NCBI RefSeq assembly: GCF_013184775.1
Contig: NZ_JAATVV010000004.1
Span: 62,001 to 126,000, forward strand
Direction of reading: 5' to 3'
Source of the DNA: Martelella sp. HB161492
Lineage (GTDB): Bacteria; Pseudomonadota; Alphaproteobacteria; Rhizobiales; Rhizobiaceae
DNA: 64,000 nt
Part shown: piece after piece, positions 85-8,388 of the stretch
Numbering within the stretch: position 1 is the first letter of the stretch
Layout: the number at the start of each line of letters is the position of its first letter
Notes under the pieces: model-generated
The model's database searches: none
What the model was told of the DNA's origin: nothing
The model's input: the letters and a program-made list of their open reading frames with translations, nothing else
Made by a program: the position numbers and the translations under genes

Positions 85-1044
85 TCAGGCAAGCTCGTCC
101 ATCGTTTCGAACGAGCCGGTTGCGCCGATCCTTGTGCCCGTTCGATCGAGAAACAGCACGGAAAGCCCCATCTGCCGGGCGAGCACGCTTCCCGCCTCAC
201 AGCCAAGCACCATCATCGCCGTCGCCCAGGCATCGGCCTCCATGCAGGACCTCTCCGAAATCACCGTCACGGAGGCCGGTGACGTGACCAGCGGCATGCC
301 CGTTGCCGGGTTCATCGTGTGGCTGAGGCGGTGCTCGCCAAGGCTGATCCAGTGCCGGTAGTCCCCGGAGGTGGCAATTGCCGCATCGGTGAGCTCGACC
401 ACGGAATGGGCCGAGCGTTTGCTGATGTCCGGCGCCTCGATCGCAACCACCCAAGGCTGACCGTCGGGCAGATGTCCCCGGGCGCGCAACTCGCCATCAA
501 TCGAAAAGAGACCGTTGAAAATGCCGTATTGCGCCGCAACCTCGGCGAGACGGTCCACCCCGAAGCCCTTGGCAATGCCATTGAGATCGAAGCGGGCATC
601 GTCGTGGCGGCAGGCGCGTCGGTTCTGCCAGTCCAGTTCGAGACTATCCGCAACGGGCCTGCGCTGCCGCGCCCGGGCTTTTCTGATCTCCTCAGGATCA
701 GCCTCAGCTGCCGAAAATCCCCAGGCCGAGACGGCATCGCCCATGGCAATATCGAAAGCACCGCCCGAGGCCCGGCCGATCACCAGTGCCGCGCCCAGCA
801 CCGTCATGAGACCGGTCGGCAATGGAACCCAATTGCCGGGCTCAGACAGGTTCAGCCGGTTGAGGTCACTGTCGGGCTTGTAGGTCGACATCTCGGCATC
901 GACCTCATCGACGGCCGCCTGCAATGCTGCGGTCAGCCCCCCCGCATTGAAGCGCGCAGGCGCATGGAACAGCGCCGACCAGCGCGTGCCCATCGTCGCT
1001 CCGTTCAGCGCGTGGCGCTGCAGATCAGAATATGTCTTCGCCAT
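85..1044 (-). CDS. apbE: FAD:protein FMN transferase (ApbE family)
   Basis: ApbE transfers FMN from FAD to a Ser or Thr of a target protein, with Mg2+. The family core is visible: the N-terminal NGATMGT motif, DLNGIAKGFGVD in the middle, and the SGDYRHW and HTMNPATG motifs in the C-terminal half. The length (319 aa) is normal. I chose the ATG at 1044 because AGAAGGA lies about 8 bases upstream; an ATG at 1053 is also possible. The start overlaps the end of the PepSY-reductase gene, so the two are translationally coupled. Oddly, there is no signal peptide or lipobox: the core begins about 14 residues in, so this copy is predicted to be cytoplasmic although its likely target (the DUF2271 protein) is exported. 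Confidence 0.93.
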   Translation of the reverse strand: MAKTYSDLQRHALNGATMGTRWSALFHAPARFNAGGLTAALQAAVDEVDAEMSTYKPDSDLNRLNLSEPGNWVPLPTGLMTVLGAALVIGRASGGAFDIAMGDAVSAWGFSAAEADPEEIRKARARQRRPVADSLELDWQNRRACRHDDARFDLNGIAKGFGVDRLAEVAAQYGIFNGLFSIDGELRARGHLPDGQPWVVAIEAPDISKRSAHSVVELTDAAIATSGDYRHWISLGEHRLSHTMNPATGMPLVTSPASVTVISERSCMEADAWATAMMVLGCEAGSVLARQMGLSVLFLDRTGTRIGATGSFETMDELA

Positions 1045-3220
1045 AACGTCCATCCTTCTTCAGGCTCGCCAGCGTAAGGCCGTGCGGGCGCAGTATGTCG
1101 GCCAGAGCGGCAGCAACGCCGCGCGCCATATCGCGGCCGCCACAGACCAGAATCTGGCCGCCTTCCTTGATCAGCGCGGCAATCTTCGGTCCGTCTCTGA
1201 GCAGAGCGTCCTGCACATAGGCAGGCTCGGCACCGCGCGAATAGGCTTCCGTCAGCGATGCGAGCTTGCCGTCACGCTGCCAGCTGGCAAATTCCTCGGC
1301 ATAGAAAGCATCGCTTTTCGGATGGCGCGCGCCGACATAGACATGCATCGGCCGCCGCCTGCGATTGGTGCGCACGAAACCGGCCAGCGGCGCAACGCCC
1401 GAACCCGCGCCGATCAACAGAACCGGCGCGCGGCCGCGGCCCGGACGGAAGGCCGGATTCGGCCGGACAAAGGCCTGAACCGTCTCTCCCGGCTCAAGTG
1501 CGGTCAGCTGCCCCGAGCAGAGACCGCCATTCTGGCGCCGGACGCAGATCTCGACAAAGCCATCGCCGCTGGATGAGGCCAGCGAATAGAAGCGCGGCAG
1601 ATCTGAGCCGGCCGGCAGAATGCCGATCAGGTCGCCGGCCTCGAATTTCGCAAAGCCGGTGCCATTCAGCCGCTGCCACAATCCCCGCCGCGGCAGCGCC
1701 AGCCGGATGAGCGAGGCAGGTGCCTGCACCTCCCTGCCGAAATCCCGCCGCGAGATGACGGAAAGCCTTGAGGTTGCAGGCGGATCGGGCTGGTGGTTGA
1801 GTTCGAAATCCATGCCGAGCGACGCCGCAAGCGCCCGGCCCCAGCGGGCGAAATCCTGCTGCGACTGCCGGTCAACACTGTGCGGAGCGACGAAGACCGG
1901 CCAGTTCCTGATCTTCAGCGCCTTGTGAACGCGCGCCGCATAACCGCAGAAATGCGGGAAGCTGCGGTCACCGAAGCCAACCAGCGCCACGGGTATTTTC
2001 GCCGCATCGGTGTAACCGTCAAGCCGTTCCAGAAAGCTCTTCGCCGTATCCGGTGCGTCGCCATCGCCATAGGTGGCGGCCAGCAGAATGAGGCGCTCGG
2101 CCTTCGACCATTTTTGCGGCGCAAAGCCATTCATCGCGGCCACATGAACCTTCAGCCCCGCAGCCTGCAGCGTCGTCTGCAATGTCGTTGCAAAGCCCCA
2201 GGTCGAACCGCCCTCGCTGCCGACGAGAACGATGGTATCGGCTTCATGCGCGCCGTTCCCGCCCCTCTGCCGCCGTCTGCCGGACAGCCAGAGCCGGATG
2301 CCGGAAACGCCCATCAGCGGCACGCCAAGTGCGGAAAGACCGAGCACCAGCCCGACAATCGACGCCCCCTGACCGGTATGCAGCATCAGGATCGTCGATG
2401 AAGCCTGCTGCCATGGCCCGTTATCGGCCCAGGACAGCATGTCGCCAGTGCCCTGATCGATATAGCCCATGCCATCGTCGGTCGTCAGCGTGAAGACGTC
2501 GGTCGGATCACCGGCACGCGGAAATACCAGCGACTGAAGTTCGCTGACCTGCATGTTCTCAAGGCTTGTGATCGCTGCAGGCGCTATGCCGGTCTTTCCG
2601 CTGACACTGGCGGGAAAGGCGGGAAAGGCCTGATCATCAGGGATAAAACCAAAGGTTGAAAGCGTCATCCACAAGGCGGTCAGCGACGAGAAAGCCAGCC
2701 CGAAGACGGCCATGCGCGCGATCGAGGTATGCAGATAGCCGTCGCCCATGCCGCGCGGTCTGGCAAACAGATAGCGCCAGCCACCGGCGCGGCGCGCCAT
2801 CAGCGAGAGCCCCGTCATGCACAGCGCCAGCAGAAACAGGGCTGTAACGGCAGCGATATAGCTGCCCCAGTCTCCCAAGAACAGCGAGCGGTGCAGCTCC
2901 GTCAGCCACAGAACCAGACCACTGGGTCTGGACGCTGCGATGACGGAACCATTTGCGGGATCGACAAGACTGGACACATACTGGCCGCCATCCATATAGG
3001 AGGCGGTGATCTGACCGGAGGCCGCGCGGTCGATTTCGGTAATGCCGGGATGCGCGGCCGCGATATTGCCGGCCAGCGTGGCGACACTCATCTTTCCGGC
3101 CGATGGGCTGTTCCAGGCATTGAGTGCCGGAAAAATCGACAATGCCGCTCCGCTCAGGGCAACAACGATCAGCAGACCCGTAGCAATCAGCCCCGGCCAA
3201 CGGTGAAGCAGACGCATCAT
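1025..3220 (-). CDS. PepSY-domain membrane protein fused to flavodoxin and ferredoxin-reductase modules
   Basis: A 731-aa membrane reductase. The N-terminal half is a PepSY-associated region with about four membrane helices (near residues 10-30, 118-140, 165-190 and 285-310). It continues into a cytoplasmic FMN-binding flavodoxin-like domain starting near 330. The C-terminal half is an FAD/NAD(P)H reductase, with RFYSLASS for FAD, LLIGAGSGVAPLAGF for the pyridine nucleotide and ILVCGGRDMA near the end. The architecture implies electrons moving from NADPH through FAD and FMN to the membrane and out to a periplasmic acceptor. Proteins of this kind are often linked to iron acquisition (PiuB-like) or to flavinylated periplasmic partners. 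It lies between the DUF2271 gene and apbE. The physiological acceptor is not known. Confidence 0.85.
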   Translation of the reverse strand: MMRLLHRWPGLIATGLLIVVALSGAALSIFPALNAWNSPSAGKMSVATLAGNIAAAHPGITEIDRAASGQITASYMDGGQYVSSLVDPANGSVIAASRPSGLVLWLTELHRSLFLGDWGSYIAAVTALFLLALCMTGLSLMARRAGGWRYLFARPRGMGDGYLHTSIARMAVFGLAFSSLTALWMTLSTFGFIPDDQAFPAFPASVSGKTGIAPAAITSLENMQVSELQSLVFPRAGDPTDVFTLTTDDGMGYIDQGTGDMLSWADNGPWQQASSTILMLHTGQGASIVGLVLGLSALGVPLMGVSGIRLWLSGRRRQRGGNGAHEADTIVLVGSEGGSTWGFATTLQTTLQAAGLKVHVAAMNGFAPQKWSKAERLILLAATYGDGDAPDTAKSFLERLDGYTDAAKIPVALVGFGDRSFPHFCGYAARVHKALKIRNWPVFVAPHSVDRQSQQDFARWGRALAASLGMDFELNHQPDPPATSRLSVISRRDFGREVQAPASLIRLALPRRGLWQRLNGTGFAKFEAGDLIGILPAGSDLPRFYSLASSSGDGFVEICVRRQNGGLCSGQLTALEPGETVQAFVRPNPAFRPGRGRAPVLLIGAGSGVAPLAGFVRTNRRRRPMHVYVGARHPKSDAFYAEEFASWQRDGKLASLTEAYSRGAEPAYVQDALLRDGPKIAALIKEGGQILVCGGRDMARGVAAALADILRPHGLTLASLKKDGRYGEDIF

Positions 3221-3238
3221 GACGCAATCCCCTTTCCG

Positions 3239-3709
3239 CTACTTCGAATAGGAGAAATCGGCGATAAATTGCCGTCCCGGCACGGACTGGCCCGATCCGG
3301 CGCTGGTCAGCGGCACGACGATTTCATTGGGGCTGCTCGGCATGTGTTCAACGGCGGCATCGACATGAAGCTGATAGCCGGCATCGAACAGTGCATCGGC
3401 GATATCGACGGTGACGCTCATGCTGCGGCCCGCGCCGACGCTCGCGCCGGTGATCCCATTGACTTCCGACAGGTCTCCGCGCGTCGCCCGCGCCCAGCCG
3501 GTCAGCGCGCCGTAATAGCGTGCCTTTCGTCCCGACAGCCACAGGCTGCCGGCATAGTTGCCGTTCTGATCCGTCAGATAATAGGCAAGATAGGCTTCCG
3601 GGCCGTAATAGCTATTCATCGTGGTCGTCATCGTCACACTGGCAGCATGGGCAAAACCGGGCGCCGTCAGGGCCGTGGAAACGGCAAGTGCGGCAAGAAG
3701 CATTTTCAT
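3239..3709 (-). CDS. DUF2271 secreted protein with candidate FMN-attachment motif
   Basis: A small exported protein of about 156 aa. The Sec signal peptide starts MKMLLAALAVSTALTAPGFA and ends with an AHA cleavage site. I chose the ATG at 3709 because AGGA sits 8 bases upstream; starts at 3724 or 3778 would only lengthen the leader. Residues 84-90 read NGITGAS (codons 3440-3460). This resembles the ApbE target consensus seen in NqrC and RnfG ([DN]-G-x-[ST]-G-A-[ST]), which would put FMN on Ser90. The next two genes in the operon are a membrane reductase and ApbE. I infer a periplasmic one-subunit flavin electron carrier; no substrate can be named. Confidence 0.8.
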   Translation of the reverse strand: MKMLLAALAVSTALTAPGFAHAASVTMTTTMNSYYGPEAYLAYYLTDQNGNYAGSLWLSGRKARYYGALTGWARATRGDLSEVNGITGASVGAGRSMSVTVDIADALFDAGYQLHVDAAVEHMPSSPNEIVVPLTSAGSGQSVPGRQFIADFSYSK

Positions 3710-3875
3710 CTGTGTCATCCTCATCGGTGAGATGCATGGAGAACCGCGCTGAACCGCGATCCTGATCCGCCTTTTCACCGGCCAAGCTGAAGACTGCCTG
3801 ACGCGCCGGAAAAGCCAGCTTCAGCTTCCCGTAAGCTTGGCGATGGATTACATCTGACGTCGGAGGGACGTGAAA
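3710..3875. promoter_or_regulatory. Divergent promoter region, DUF2271 operon / two-component system
   Basis: The 166-base gap between the divergent DUF2271 operon and the response-regulator gene must hold both promoters. A 9-bp inverted repeat is visible: AAGCTGAAG at 3784-3792 and CTTCAGCTT at 3819-3827, 26 bases apart. It could be a binding site for the adjacent OmpR-type regulator, but no clear -10/-35 pair was identified. Confidence 0.4.
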
Positions 3876-4535
3876 ATGCGGGTATTGCTGGTAGAAGACG
3901 ATACGGTGCTGGGGGCGGCAGTGCGCGACCAGATCGCTGCCGATGGTCATTCGGTCGACTGGGTGATGCGGCTCGATGCCGCCGCGGCTGCACTTGACGT
4001 CAGCGGGTTTGATCTCGTCCTGCTCGATCTGATGCTGCCAGACGGGCGTGGTCTCGTGTTCCTGAAAGGCCTGCGCGGGCGCGGCAGCGTCACGCCGGTG
4101 ATTATCCTGACCGCCCTTGATCAGGTCTCGGACCGGATCGAGGGGCTGAACGCCGGTGCCGACGACTATCTCGTCAAACCTTTCGATCTCGCCGAGCTTT
4201 CCGCCCGGATAGGTTCCGTCGCGCGGCGTTACGCCGGCAATCCCAATCCGATCATCAGCCATGGGGCGCTGGACATCGATCTTGCCGCCCGCCTCATTCA
4301 GCGGGACGGACATCCCGTTTCGCTGACGGCGCGGGAATGGGCCCTGTTCGAAACCCTGCTGCAGCGGCCGGGGCAGCTTTTGTCGAAAGCCCAGCTTGAG
4401 GAGCGGCTTTATTCCTTCAACACAGAGATCGAGAGCAACACGATCGAGGTTCATGTCAGCCGGCTGCGCAAGAAGCTTGGCGCCAACATCATCGAAACCG
4501 AGCGCGGCCTCGGCTACAGGCTGGGTCGCCCATGA
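3876..4535 (+). CDS. OmpR/PhoB-type response regulator
   Basis: A DNA-binding response regulator of 219 aa. The receiver domain has the acidic pair EDD at 7-9, phospho-acceptor Asp51 in LLDLMLPDGRG, and the conserved Lys in VKPFDLAELSARI. A winged-helix domain fills the C-terminal half (TAREWALFETLL ... NTIEVHVSRLRKKLG ... RGLGYRL). GGAGGG at 3862-3867 is well spaced for the ATG at 3876, not for the GTG at 3870. The gene overlaps its histidine kinase by 4 bases. Its position opposite the DUF2271-PepSY-apbE operon makes that operon the likely target. Confidence 0.93.
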   Translation: MRVLLVEDDTVLGAAVRDQIAADGHSVDWVMRLDAAAAALDVSGFDLVLLDLMLPDGRGLVFLKGLRGRGSVTPVIILTALDQVSDRIEGLNAGADDYLVKPFDLAELSARIGSVARRYAGNPNPIISHGALDIDLAARLIQRDGHPVSLTAREWALFETLLQRPGQLLSKAQLEERLYSFNTEIESNTIEVHVSRLRKKLGANIIETERGLGYRLGRP

Positions 4536-5884
4536 AACGGCCGATGTCACTGCAGCTCAGACTGGCGCTGGTGATCGGAGCCGCCGTCACGGTCTTGTGG
4601 CTGATTGCCGCGGCCTATACGGCCCACAGGCTTGGCCATGAGCTGGAAGAGGCCTTTGATGACAATCTGCAGCTGACAGCATGGCGCATGCTGCCGCTTG
4701 CCGCCCATGCGCTCAGAGAACGTGAAGGTCGCAACGGCAATCGTGATTCCGATATCAGCCGGTTCCGAGATGACGATGAAAGCGTCGCCTATATCGTGCG
4801 CAACCGCTCCGGCGATATCGTGCTGCATTCCGGTGATGTCGGGCGCAGTCTTTTTCCGCCCCTTACCACGACCGGCTTCAGCGAGGACAAGAGCTACCGC
4901 TTCTATACCGATGTCTCGCTCAACAGCGCCTATTCGATCACTGTCGCCGAGCCGCTCAGACATCGCGATACCACCAAACGCGTCATGCTGCTTGGCCTGC
5001 TCTTTCCGCTGCTGATCGTGATCCCCTTCAGCCTTGCCGCGATTGCCCTTGCGCTGCGCGGCGGCTTCAGGCCGGTGCGCGGCCTGCAACAGGCGCTTTC
5101 CCATCGCAATGCGCGCGATCTGTCGCCGCTGCCCGAAACGGATCTGCCGGCAGAACTGAGGCCGGTGACGACCGCGATGAACCAGCTCTTCGAACGGTTG
5201 AAGGCTGCCTTCGAGGCTGAGCGCGCTTTTACGGCCAATGCCGCCCACGAACTGCGAACACCTGTGGCAGGCGCGATTGCCCAGGCACAGCGCCTGCAGG
5301 CAGAATCGGCGGAAAACCGCAGCATCGAGCGCGCTCGCGAGATCGAGACGACCCTGAAGCGGCTGATGCGCATGTCTGAAAAGCTGATGCAGCTGGCCCG
5401 GGCCGAAGGCGGCCGGTTGCGGCTGGAGACACAGTCCGACCTGGCACCGGTCCTGAAAATCATTGTCAGTGATTTCGAACGCGCCGGAGATGATCGGATT
5501 GCGCTGCAACTGCCGGAAACAGGCGTCAGATCGGATCTTGATCCCGACATTTTCGCCATTTTGAGCCGCAACCTGATCGAAAATGCCGAGCGCTACGGAA
5601 CCGAAGGCCGGACGATCACCGTCGCGCTCTCGGAGGACGGCACCCTCGTTGTCGCCAATGAGGGGCCGAGCCTTTCAGCCGAAGACACCGAACGCCTGAC
5701 GCATCGCTTCGAGCGCGGGGTGATGGATGCCAAGGGCAGCGGACTCGGCCTTGCCATCGTCCGATCGATCACCGATCGCGCAGGCGGCGCCATCACGATC
5801 ATCTCGCCGCGCCCGGACGGAAAATCCGGGGTGGAGATCAGCGTGTGCCTGCCCGTGAGCGAACCGCAGAAGCCTCCAGGCTGA
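4532..5884 (+). CDS. Sensor histidine kinase
   Basis: A 450-aa inner-membrane kinase, partner of the upstream response regulator. There are membrane helices near residues 10-30 and 150-175, flanking a periplasmic sensor of about 120 residues with no recognisable ligand motif. A HAMP-like linker follows. His239 in NAAHELRTP is the phosphorylation site. The ATPase domain has an N-box (NLIENAERYG) and GSGLGLAIV. The periplasmic loop is rich in charged residues (GRNGNRDSDISRFRDDD), which might sense cations, but this is speculative. Confidence 0.92.
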   Translation: MKRPMSLQLRLALVIGAAVTVLWLIAAAYTAHRLGHELEEAFDDNLQLTAWRMLPLAAHALREREGRNGNRDSDISRFRDDDESVAYIVRNRSGDIVLHSGDVGRSLFPPLTTTGFSEDKSYRFYTDVSLNSAYSITVAEPLRHRDTTKRVMLLGLLFPLLIVIPFSLAAIALALRGGFRPVRGLQQALSHRNARDLSPLPETDLPAELRPVTTAMNQLFERLKAAFEAERAFTANAAHELRTPVAGAIAQAQRLQAESAENRSIERAREIETTLKRLMRMSEKLMQLARAEGGRLRLETQSDLAPVLKIIVSDFERAGDDRIALQLPETGVRSDLDPDIFAILSRNLIENAERYGTEGRTITVALSEDGTLVVANEGPSLSAEDTERLTHRFERGVMDAKGSGLGLAIVRSITDRAGGAITIISPRPDGKSGVEISVCLPVSEPQKPPG

Positions 5885-5904: not shown

Positions 5905-8193
5905 TCATGGCAGCCGGCTGACCGTCGCCCGGTCGCCTGCTGTTGGCTGCGGCCGGCCGTAGAGATAGCCCTGAACATCCATGCAGCCCTCGCGCCGGAC
6001 GAGATCAAGCTGTTCCGGGGTCTCCACGCCTTCGGCCACCGTGCGCGCCCCGAGCCGCTTGCCAAGATCGGCGATCGCCCGGATCACGGCTGCACTCTCA
6101 TGCCGCTCCACGGCATTCTTCACGAAGGATCCATCAATCTTGATCTTGTCGAAGGGGAACATCTGCAGGTTCGACAGCGAGGAATAGCCCGTGCCGAAAT
6201 CATCAAGGGCGATCTTTACCCCAAGCGCTCGCAACCGGGAAAGATTGTCGATGCCGGCTGCTTCTGCGGTCAGCAGCGCCGTCTCGGTGATCTCAAGCTC
6301 AAGCCGCTCCACCGGCAAACCACTTTGCTGAAGCGCGGCGATGACGGCGGGCACAAGCCGGTCACCGCCAAGCTGAGTGGCCGAAACATTGACGGCAACC
6401 GGGGCCTCGTCCGGAAAGCTCAGCGCTTCGCGGCAGGCGGCCTGAAGCACGAAACTGCCAAGCTGCTCGATCAGTCCGCTCTGTTCCGCAATCGGTATGA
6501 ATTCGCCCGGCCCTACCCAGGAGCGCGCGCCGTCATGCCAGCGCAGCAGCGCCTCACGCGCCGTTATCTGCCCGGTTTCGATATTCACGATCGGCTGGTA
6601 GAAAACGAACAGCCCGTCATATGTGTCAAGCACCGCCCTTAACCGCGCCTCGAGCGCAACCCGCTCCTGAACCAAAGCCTCCATCTCTGGCTGAAACAGC
6701 TGCACGCGCCCCTTGCCGGCCGCCTTGGCCGCGTAAAGCGCCATGTCAGCGCGGGCGAGCAGCGTATCAAGATCGCGACCATGCGCAGGCGCCAGAGCAA
6801 CACCGATGGACGCGCCGATATGGACATTGATGTCGCTGGTCAGAGTGAAGGGCTCACACAGTGCCTCGATGATGGCCCTTGCAACGGAGTCAGCCTGGAC
6901 TTCACATTCGCTCTGAATGACCGCCGCAAATTCATCGCCGCCAAGCCGGCCGACTTCGGTTGCCTTTCCCTCGCAGACATCGCTCAGCCTCCGGGCAACC
7001 TGCTCCAGCAGGATGTCGCCGATCCGATGCCCGCGCGTATCATTGATGAGCTTGAAGCCATCCAGATCGATGTAGAGCAGCGCCAGATGACAGTCATCCG
7101 CCAGGAGCTGTTCCTTCAAGTCCTCGCTGAAGGCGAAACGGTTGGCAAGTCCCGTCAGCATATCGGTATGGGCGAGCTGATGAATGCGCTCCTCCGTCTC
7201 GACCTCCTTGGTGACGATCGCCCATCTGAGCATCGGCCCAAGATAGCTGCCATCATCGTCGGTAACAGCCGACACCTTCAGATCGAGCACTTCCGGGCCG
7301 AGGGTGATGCGGGCGCTATGCGGCAATCTGGCCGGATCCGACAGAAGCTGCCGCTGATACTCGGGATGTCGGTGGAACACGTCAATGGACGCGCCAAGCA
7401 GCGTGTCGGCGGTGACCGGCAGCAGATGCTCGATCCGGCGGATCAGCAGCCGCGATGTCTCATTGACATAATTGATCCGGAAACCATCAAGATCGACCGT
7501 CATCACGGCAACGGGCAGGTCATCAATCATGCGCAGCAGCCGCCTTTGATCCTCCTCCCGCCGGCGCGCACGGGTCTGCGCATTCACCATGCTGACAAAA
7601 TCGCGGTAATTGACCATCAGCACAACGATCATGCCGATGGAAACGAGGATAATCGTGGCCGCACTGGCGATTAGCGCCGGTTCGCCAGTGGCGAGAAAAA
7701 AGACGGCGAAGACGCTGTTGACGATCAGCGTCACCGTCATGGCAGCGGAACGCAAATGCATCAGACAGAAGATGCAGGTGATGACCGTGATGGCCATATA
7801 GAAGGCAAGATGCGATTTTTCGTAGGCGTCGCCATAGGGAAACAGCATCAGCGCCCAGGCGGTGAAAAAGATCGCGATAAATGGCGCCAGACGATTGGTT
7901 CGCTGCAGCGCGTGCAGCGCCACCGCGGCCGTCGGAACCTTGTTGCGCGATGTCCACCAGAAATACACCCTCACCGCGCAGGCCAGGGTAAACAGCACAG
8001 GCACGCCGGTCGCGAGCCAGAAGGGGGCATAGCGCATATGGGTGGCGGCCACGGCCCATGTACTGCTCATCAAGATGAGATACATCATCGGCAACTGGCG
8101 GGAGAAGGCACTGTACTGGGCTTTCAGCAGTTCAGGATTGTCACGCGGCACCGCCATGAAGGCCTGGATCCGAGACAAGCGCCACCACTTCAT
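5905..8193 (-). CDS. Membrane-anchored GGDEF-EAL cyclic-di-GMP enzyme
   Basis: A 762-aa protein that could make and/or degrade cyclic di-GMP. About five membrane helices lie in residues 30-195, then a PAS-like region, a GGDEF domain with an intact motif at about 418-422 (GRLGGDEF), and an EAL domain with intact EALLRW at about 547 and DDFGTGYSSL. The inhibitory RxxD site just before GGDEF is absent (KATE instead), so product inhibition is not expected. The ATG at 8193 has GGAG 7 bases upstream; an ATG at 8256 is less likely. The gene is convergent with the histidine kinase. Confidence 0.9.
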   Translation of the reverse strand: MKWWRLSRIQAFMAVPRDNPELLKAQYSAFSRQLPMMYLILMSSTWAVAATHMRYAPFWLATGVPVLFTLACAVRVYFWWTSRNKVPTAAVALHALQRTNRLAPFIAIFFTAWALMLFPYGDAYEKSHLAFYMAITVITCIFCLMHLRSAAMTVTLIVNSVFAVFFLATGEPALIASAATIILVSIGMIVVLMVNYRDFVSMVNAQTRARRREEDQRRLLRMIDDLPVAVMTVDLDGFRINYVNETSRLLIRRIEHLLPVTADTLLGASIDVFHRHPEYQRQLLSDPARLPHSARITLGPEVLDLKVSAVTDDDGSYLGPMLRWAIVTKEVETEERIHQLAHTDMLTGLANRFAFSEDLKEQLLADDCHLALLYIDLDGFKLINDTRGHRIGDILLEQVARRLSDVCEGKATEVGRLGGDEFAAVIQSECEVQADSVARAIIEALCEPFTLTSDINVHIGASIGVALAPAHGRDLDTLLARADMALYAAKAAGKGRVQLFQPEMEALVQERVALEARLRAVLDTYDGLFVFYQPIVNIETGQITAREALLRWHDGARSWVGPGEFIPIAEQSGLIEQLGSFVLQAACREALSFPDEAPVAVNVSATQLGGDRLVPAVIAALQQSGLPVERLELEITETALLTAEAAGIDNLSRLRALGVKIALDDFGTGYSSLSNLQMFPFDKIKIDGSFVKNAVERHESAAVIRAIADLGKRLGARTVAEGVETPEQLDLVRREGCMDVQGYLYGRPQPTAGDRATVSRLP

Positions 8194-8388
8194 TGAAAAG
8201 CTCCAGTTTACATCCGGCCATATCGGCCGGACCGTCTCTGCCAGATTATGCAGCACGCATCACGGCGTCCAGCATGACTGTTCATCGCATGTCGCCCATG
8301 GACTGGCCAATCCCAGCACGCATTATGATGACCGCGCTGTCAAGACAAGCTTGACCCGCTGTGCATGCAGGATCGCGCAACACAACCA

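Follow-up and report, generated by a model that had tools for sequence, protein, structure and literature searches.

How does a periplasmic flavoprotein acquire its covalent FMN when the enzyme expected to attach it has no export leader, and what signal and what electron acceptor would the resulting chain serve? The question is raised by five genes in the window, by which we mean the whole 64,000-nucleotide stretch analysed here from Martelella sp. HB161492 (contig NZ_JAATVV010000004.1; genome of 5.28 Mb with a completeness of 100% by a completeness tool). On the minus strand lie a leaderless ApbE-type FAD:protein FMN transferase (85..1053; PF02424, E 2.7e-73), a membrane reductase (1025..3220) and a secreted DUF2271 protein with a Sec-type leader (3239..3709, open frame to 3778; PF10029, E 1.8e-28), and on the plus strand, divergently, an OmpR-type response regulator (3870..4535; Response_reg and Trans_reg_C) and a sensor histidine kinase (4532..5884; HisKA and HATPase_c). 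The reductase combines a PepSY_TM domain (~2285-3208; PF03929, E 7.7e-33), a flavodoxin domain (~1913-2230; Flavodoxin_1, E 5.9e-15) and an FNR/NAD-binding part (~1112-1417; NAD_binding_1, E 1.1e-09), and its open reading frame overlaps that of ApbE by 29 bases at the end. The preliminary description, made from the letters alone, had named this minus-strand set and its divergent OmpR-type pair, and it holds: all five reading frames are in place, and the Pfam matches of all five proteins exceed the curated cut-offs. The DUF2271 frame opens with GTG at 3778; relatives align from the ATG at 3709 (or 3724), which is probably the true start and leaves space for the operator described below. Tail to tail with the kinase gene, a GGDEF-EAL protein is encoded at 5905-8256 on the minus strand, with no sign of membership in the module.

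The kind of system is already known, because PepSY-like clusters with a flavinylated DUF2271 protein have been published: the survey of Meheust (2021; PMC8238504) reports 3220 PepSY-like clusters in 3040 genomes, with DUF2271 in 2833, and a DUF2271 protein flavinylated by its cognate ApbE at an [S/T]GA[S/T] site. The window locus is such a PepSY-like flavinylation system, with a PepSY_TM protein (PF03929/PF16357) that carries an NAD-binding domain, a secreted DUF2271 substrate and ApbE in one flavinylation-associated cluster. It differs from the published systems in having a dedicated two-component pair, a conserved double operator and a leaderless ApbE, and its relatives add a PepSY_2 protein and an acidic secreted protein. 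DUF4198, a frequent but not required neighbour, was absent from the six window proteins and the relatives' representatives that were scanned (genes left of ApbE excluded). The Caulobacter operon CCNA_03155-03159 likewise unites a flavoprotein reductase with ApbE and a DUF2271 protein, but there the PepSY protein and the reductase are separate genes, DUF4198 is present, and the operon is among the iron-responsive, Fur-regulated genes (PMC3751524, PMC12004947). In the extracts of PMC8238504 that concern these clusters, leaderless ApbEs are not discussed, and the one occurrence of 'two-component' is in the reference list; among the matches listed in literature searches for DUF2271 with two-component systems, and for PepSY with VIT1, b561 or QseC, nothing dealt with this system. 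Two features merit follow-up: an ApbE lineage that lacks leaders yet serves a secreted protein, and a regulator dedicated to the module whose double operator is conserved.

The five genes belong together well beyond this genome. Among 61 genomes (own and relatives), DUF2271 was found in nine at E 0.001 and in eight above the family cut-off, and in all eight over-cut-off loci, the window's included, the regulator, kinase, DUF2271, reductase and ApbE occur together. A second sample comprised the best 80 of at least 554 confirmed stretches from a scan with aligned reductases; these are top matches to the window's reductase, near-copies included, so that close kin are favoured in the counts of DUF2271 (80/80), ApbE (79/80, each in one locus with DUF2271), regulator (77/80), kinase (75/80), PepSY_2 (75/80) and cytochrome b561 (31/80 at 100 bits or more). 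Two of these loci, L042 and L076, end at contig ends, and L063 lacks the regulator/kinase pair within 9 kb on either side. Recurrence in both samples indicates a neighbourhood that exceeds chance; co-occurrence in relatives had been set as a test in the preliminary description, and the genes do recur together, though within the window's genus the operon is patchy, with DUF2271 in only 2 of 13 genomes. The closest operon relative among the matches listed is Martelella alba (reductase 89% identical), and the regulator is 70-94% identical in L012-L018. One locus with a sub-threshold DUF2271 match (L019) was left out of the synteny and leader counts, and L012 and L020 come from the same genome. 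Record titles name different genera within each of three locus sets (L023/L032/L034/L036, L027/L028/L029 and L024/L026) whose members share 0.53-0.87 of their 31-mers, which suggests that the operon may have been transferred horizontally, and recently, among them.

Across the phylum the regulated form is a subtype. DUF2271 was present in 70 of 398 genomes at E 0.001 and in 65 above the cut-off, and the 68 over-cut-off matches correspond to 60 neighbourhoods taken, the window and 7 left out. Only five of the 60 neighbourhoods carry the fused reductase (L154, L155, L156, L159 and L160) and four a strong regulator match (L156, L157, L159 and L160), while an ApbE match was found in 39, mostly adjoining a separate flavoprotein reductase. 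Nor is the pair universal within the subtype, being absent from L063, L154 and L155 within the stretches covered. No ApbE was found within the 13 kb taken around L156 and L157, which are of the regulated subtype and have both the regulator/kinase pair and the DUF2271 motif.

The DUF2271 protein is the candidate flavin carrier, combining the PF10029 domain, an export leader and an [ST]GA[ST] site whose predicted FMN-acceptor serine (codon 3440..3442, minus strand, in G-I-T-G-A-S) falls on the motif seen in relatives. Each of the 80 distinct DUF2271 proteins compared contains this motif exactly once, whereas it occurs in 13 of 84 reductases, 0 of 73 PepSY_2 proteins and 0 of 33 b561 proteins. 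In the fused-reductase subtype its last residue, the presumed acceptor, is serine ([TS]GAS). In the other layout it is usually threonine, with variants such as TGAT, TGPT or SSAT, and several DUF2271 proteins lack the strict motif despite an adjoining ApbE, so the motif is looser there. An AlphaFold-type model of the window's protein is weak, with a mean pLDDT of 68.1 and its lowest values around the motif, and is not relied on here. Profile searches of the own genome found one ApbE and one DUF2271 and no FMN_bind, NqrB/RnfD or DUF3570, which leaves DUF2271 as the only type of ApbE client found. These results make it very unlikely that ApbE serves an unrecognised cytosolic client and leaves DUF2271 without flavin, a reading that has a precedent in the cytosolic ApbE of Klebsiella, which serves a soluble fumarate reductase (PMC12052999); against it stand the missing alternative client families, the distribution of the motif, and the sharing of a locus by ApbE and DUF2271 in nearly all of the best reductase loci.

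The enzyme itself is a regular member of its family: profile positions 13-301 align with the solved ApbE 6nxi, including the invariant HT..P and ADA.ATA segments, which we take to be residues of the metal/FAD site. What sets it apart is its N-terminus, where the export or lipoprotein leader of the extracytosolic type was looked for and none was found. Two codons separate the upstream stop from the first Met, and the conserved core follows about 18 residues later; among the eight loci compared first, the match to ApbE starts 2-10 codons past the preceding stop, and in 86 of 87 loci the frame is open for just 19-31 codons between that stop and the core, while in the remaining locus (L021) it is open for longer but has no hydrophobic segment. 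Leaders were counted with a home-made hydrophobicity rule, not with SignalP. The rule asks for charge at the very N-terminus and a hydrophobic segment behind it, and it accepts 144 of 154 DUF2271 proteins, 107 of 108 PepSY_2 proteins and 1 of 102 regulators. By this rule, ApbEs beside DUF2271 have a leader in 0 of 91 cases with the fused reductase, in 4 of 31 cases of the other layout (only that of L117 convincing) and in 1 of 6 cases from an additional, alphaproteobacterial sample, as against 29 of 34 ApbEs away from DUF2271, made up of 19/24 and 10/10 from the own genus. The latter ten (L161-L170) mostly have RR before the hydrophobic part. The five misses away from DUF2271 are L180, an operon of the present type truncated where its locus ends, two fragments in L184, L196, whose Tat-like leader falls below the threshold, and L191, which looks leaderless. 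In a tree of 90 ApbEs, the DUF2271-operon enzymes fall into a single group (SH-aLRT 94, not starred) with 54 members, namely 53 plus the truncated L180, and 49 of the 54 are leaderless by the test; the tree took 18 of the 91 fused-reductase ApbEs and left out domains shorter than 200 residues and the duplicate loci L179 and L185. As these enzymes form a single group, the leader counts may reflect one event and not many.

With an enzyme that lacks a leader and a client that has one, the simplest interpretation places FMN attachment before export, and the leaderless ApbE suggests that DUF2271 would be flavinylated in the cytosol. Such a pair can work there, as the published E. coli assay co-expressed a DUF2271 protein with ApbE, both described as signal-peptide-truncated, and obtained flavinylation (PMC8238504). 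The Klebsiella enzyme resembles the present one in having no leader, but its client is a soluble cytosolic fumarate reductase and here the client has an export leader (PMC12052999, the only relevant source among the matches listed for leaderless ApbEs with exported clients). Alternatively, the ApbE of the same module might enter the periplasm through an unrecognised pathway and flavinylate its target there, as in the NQR, RNF and NosR systems. Most characterised ApbEs are indeed periplasmic lipoproteins acting on secreted targets (PMC12052999), and one ApbE beside DUF2271 (L117:6791-8758) is an exception that retains a convincing lipoprotein-type leader; this and the A. ursilacus ApbE of the published assay, termed 'signal peptide-truncated' (PMC8238504), mean that leaderlessness is not universal. 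We nevertheless regard a periplasmic enzyme as unlikely for the fused-reductase type, given that the test which finds no leader among its 91 ApbEs finds one in all ten other same-genus ApbEs of the sample, and that the stretch between stop and core is so short, or in L021 not hydrophobic. Export of a flavinylated and folded DUF2271 by Tat instead of Sec would ease the compartment problem, and automatic annotation gave one Brucella DUF2271 protein the label 'Tat pathway signal protein' (PMC6304850). The leader, however, is of the Sec type and conserved in relatives, and RR stands near it in only 10 of 77 distinct N-termini, there ahead of the likely start Met, so that export by Tat seems the most improbable of the readings considered here.

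Cytosolic flavinylation before Sec export thus remains the reading we prefer for this locus. Whether it extends to the whole ApbE lineage, with a flavin-bearing, unfolded or partly folded chain passing through Sec, is a proposition to which we would give an even chance; among the matches listed in our literature searches there was no report of an FMN-bearing precursor passing Sec. Under that wider reading, the ApbE-DUF2271 fusions (L149, L150, L152 and L153), all four of which have a leader by the test, would keep it and react outside.

The source of the electrons was addressed through the reductase. Its C-terminal half is a diflavin reductase with flavodoxin and FAD/NADPH domains like CysJ and P450 reductase, from which it differs in being fused to a haem-type membrane domain. 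For the N-terminal half, just one solved relative matches significantly, the Pseudomonas aeruginosa siderophore reductase FoxB (7abw; E 1.9e-06), which shares the membrane part with its four haem-type histidines but is a 382-residue chain without the flavodoxin/FNR part. FoxB is not known to have an ApbE or DUF2271 partner. All 84 distinct reductase sequences retain His6, His110, His164 and His281, giving the membrane part two pairs of histidines of the haem-ligand type, and by analogy with FoxB they are predicted to hold two bis-His b haems; a P. aeruginosa PepSY-like protein with two haem sites and conserved histidines has been described in a 2024 follow-up (PMC11334425). The profile search found one PepSY_TM protein in the own genome. 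A flavinylation motif within the reductase was also considered and rejected, the few [ST]GA[ST] matches lying in scattered places. The path drawn in the preliminary description, from NADPH through the membrane reductase to a periplasmic flavoprotein, fits the diflavin C-terminus, the FoxB-like N-terminus, the histidine set and the DUF2271 motif, and would run from NADPH to FAD, to the FMN of the flavodoxin domain, to the two b haems and on to the FMN of periplasmic DUF2271.

Between the two divergent units lies a conserved double operator. OmpR-family regulators bind tandem half-sites one helical turn apart, and the consensus from 73 distinct regulator promoters consists of a left box, s-CTKAC-N5-(G)CTGAmG, followed after 15 or 16 bases by its mirror, CTTCAG-N6-GTCAG-sTT. 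In the window, operator half A (3819..3836, GCTTAC-N5-GCTGAAG) matches the consensus exactly, and half B (3784..3803), with its tandem half-sites inverted, has two mismatches and is conserved in the relatives' divergent promoters. With up to two mismatches the left box was found in 69 of the 73 promoters versus 2 of 365 shuffles and the right box in 56 versus 0 of 365, figures that illustrate and do not prove the operator, since the consensus was derived from these same related promoters, near-copies included. Both boxes, allowing up to three mismatches each, occur in 64 of the 73, always 15 or 16 bases apart, and more weight is carried by the half-sites, which are nearly fixed while the spacers vary. 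In the own genome the left box is matched exactly at 3 sites and with one mismatch at 38, versus 15 for the reversed control, and among the first 20 of the 41 matches examined the two-sided arrangement was seen solely at the window locus. The other two exact matches lie inside long ORFs; the window's site itself also lies within a spurious minus-strand ORF, so position inside an ORF decides nothing by itself. A wider regulon was considered and is not claimed, the second inverted site being lacking in the other matches examined. Control of the module by the adjacent regulator and kinase, as proposed earlier, is supported by the synteny and by the double operator between both units, and the regulator would bind at 3784-3836 and control both.

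The best scores of the pair against the NCBIfam equivalogs were below the cut-offs for a QseBC or PmrAB identity (PmrA 204.1 of 330 bits, QseC 204.7 of 475 bits). The periplasmic sensor domain of the kinase was placed by eye on the alignment at ~4619-4981, and the AlphaFold model of residues 1-175 has a mean pLDDT of 83.4. Of 80 distinct kinase sequences, 67 have His at positions 81 and 101 alike, 13 have it at neither and none is mixed, an all-or-none pattern that suggests one shared site; the window's kinase has Asp and Gly at these positions (4772-4834).

To estimate what the chain might reduce, we considered the neighbours of the relatives' operons. Among the best 80 reductase loci, 34 carry a heavy-metal P1B ATPase, whose gene immediately follows ApbE in 27 of them; 32 carry a transporter of the VIT1 family, encoded downstream of ApbE in 30; and 18 carry a Ferric_reduct-like protein. 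Families were assigned from representatives, and some members of the P1B ATPase cluster are fragments or stand apart from the operon; the TPC motif was seen in the relatives' P1B ATPase, but no metal specificity is read from it here. VIT1 was also reported near 167 PepSY-like clusters (PMC8238504). An acidic secreted protein between regulator and DUF2271 is present in 46 of 77 loci by its C-terminal motif, and a broader count of 60/85 also took in acidic tails of PepSY_2. The metal genes of relatives and the response to iron of the operon with DUF2271 and ApbE in Caulobacter (PMC3751524, PMC12004947) make iron or another metal our best guess for both the acceptor and the kinase signal, held with modest confidence. 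The same evidence counts against a role of the chain in repairing oxidised proteins of the periplasm or in disposing of an oxidant, with the kinase sensing oxidative stress, although this reading has some claim in the window itself: tblastn with one query each found no match to PepSY_2, VIT1, P1B ATPase, b561 or ferric reductase in the window and 16 kb to its left, and the genome's single VIT1 protein lies on another contig. A PepSY_2 profile search of the own genome likewise gave no match, but its control matched nowhere either, so that this absence carries little weight. Periplasmic repair of oxidised proteins exists in principle, as MsrPQ shows elsewhere. We consider such a non-metal acceptor possible, if on the doubtful side, and retain a metal as the preferred one.

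Taken together, we find it reasonably probable that the locus is a two-component-regulated PepSY-like system in which leaderless ApbE would act in the cytosol and attach FMN to the serine of the DUF2271 precursor, Sec would export the flavinylated precursor, and DUF2271, fed by the reductase, would pass electrons on in the periplasm, most likely to Fe(III) or a different metal complex, with the kinase responding to a periplasmic signal. The genes and their domains, the motif, the leader on DUF2271 and its lack on ApbE, the histidines, the operator and the synteny are visible in the sequences; flavinylation and where it happens, haem binding, electron flow, acceptor and signal are deduced from them. 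Flavinylation of exported proteins is usually placed outside the cytosol, where it needs exported FAD, and this leaderless ApbE lineage suggests the opposite order. If the lineage does act in the cytosol, neither a flavin exporter nor a periplasmic FAD pool would be required. The conserved operator, together with the metal-transport genes of the relatives, offers a handle on the acceptor and signal of PepSY/DUF2271 chains.
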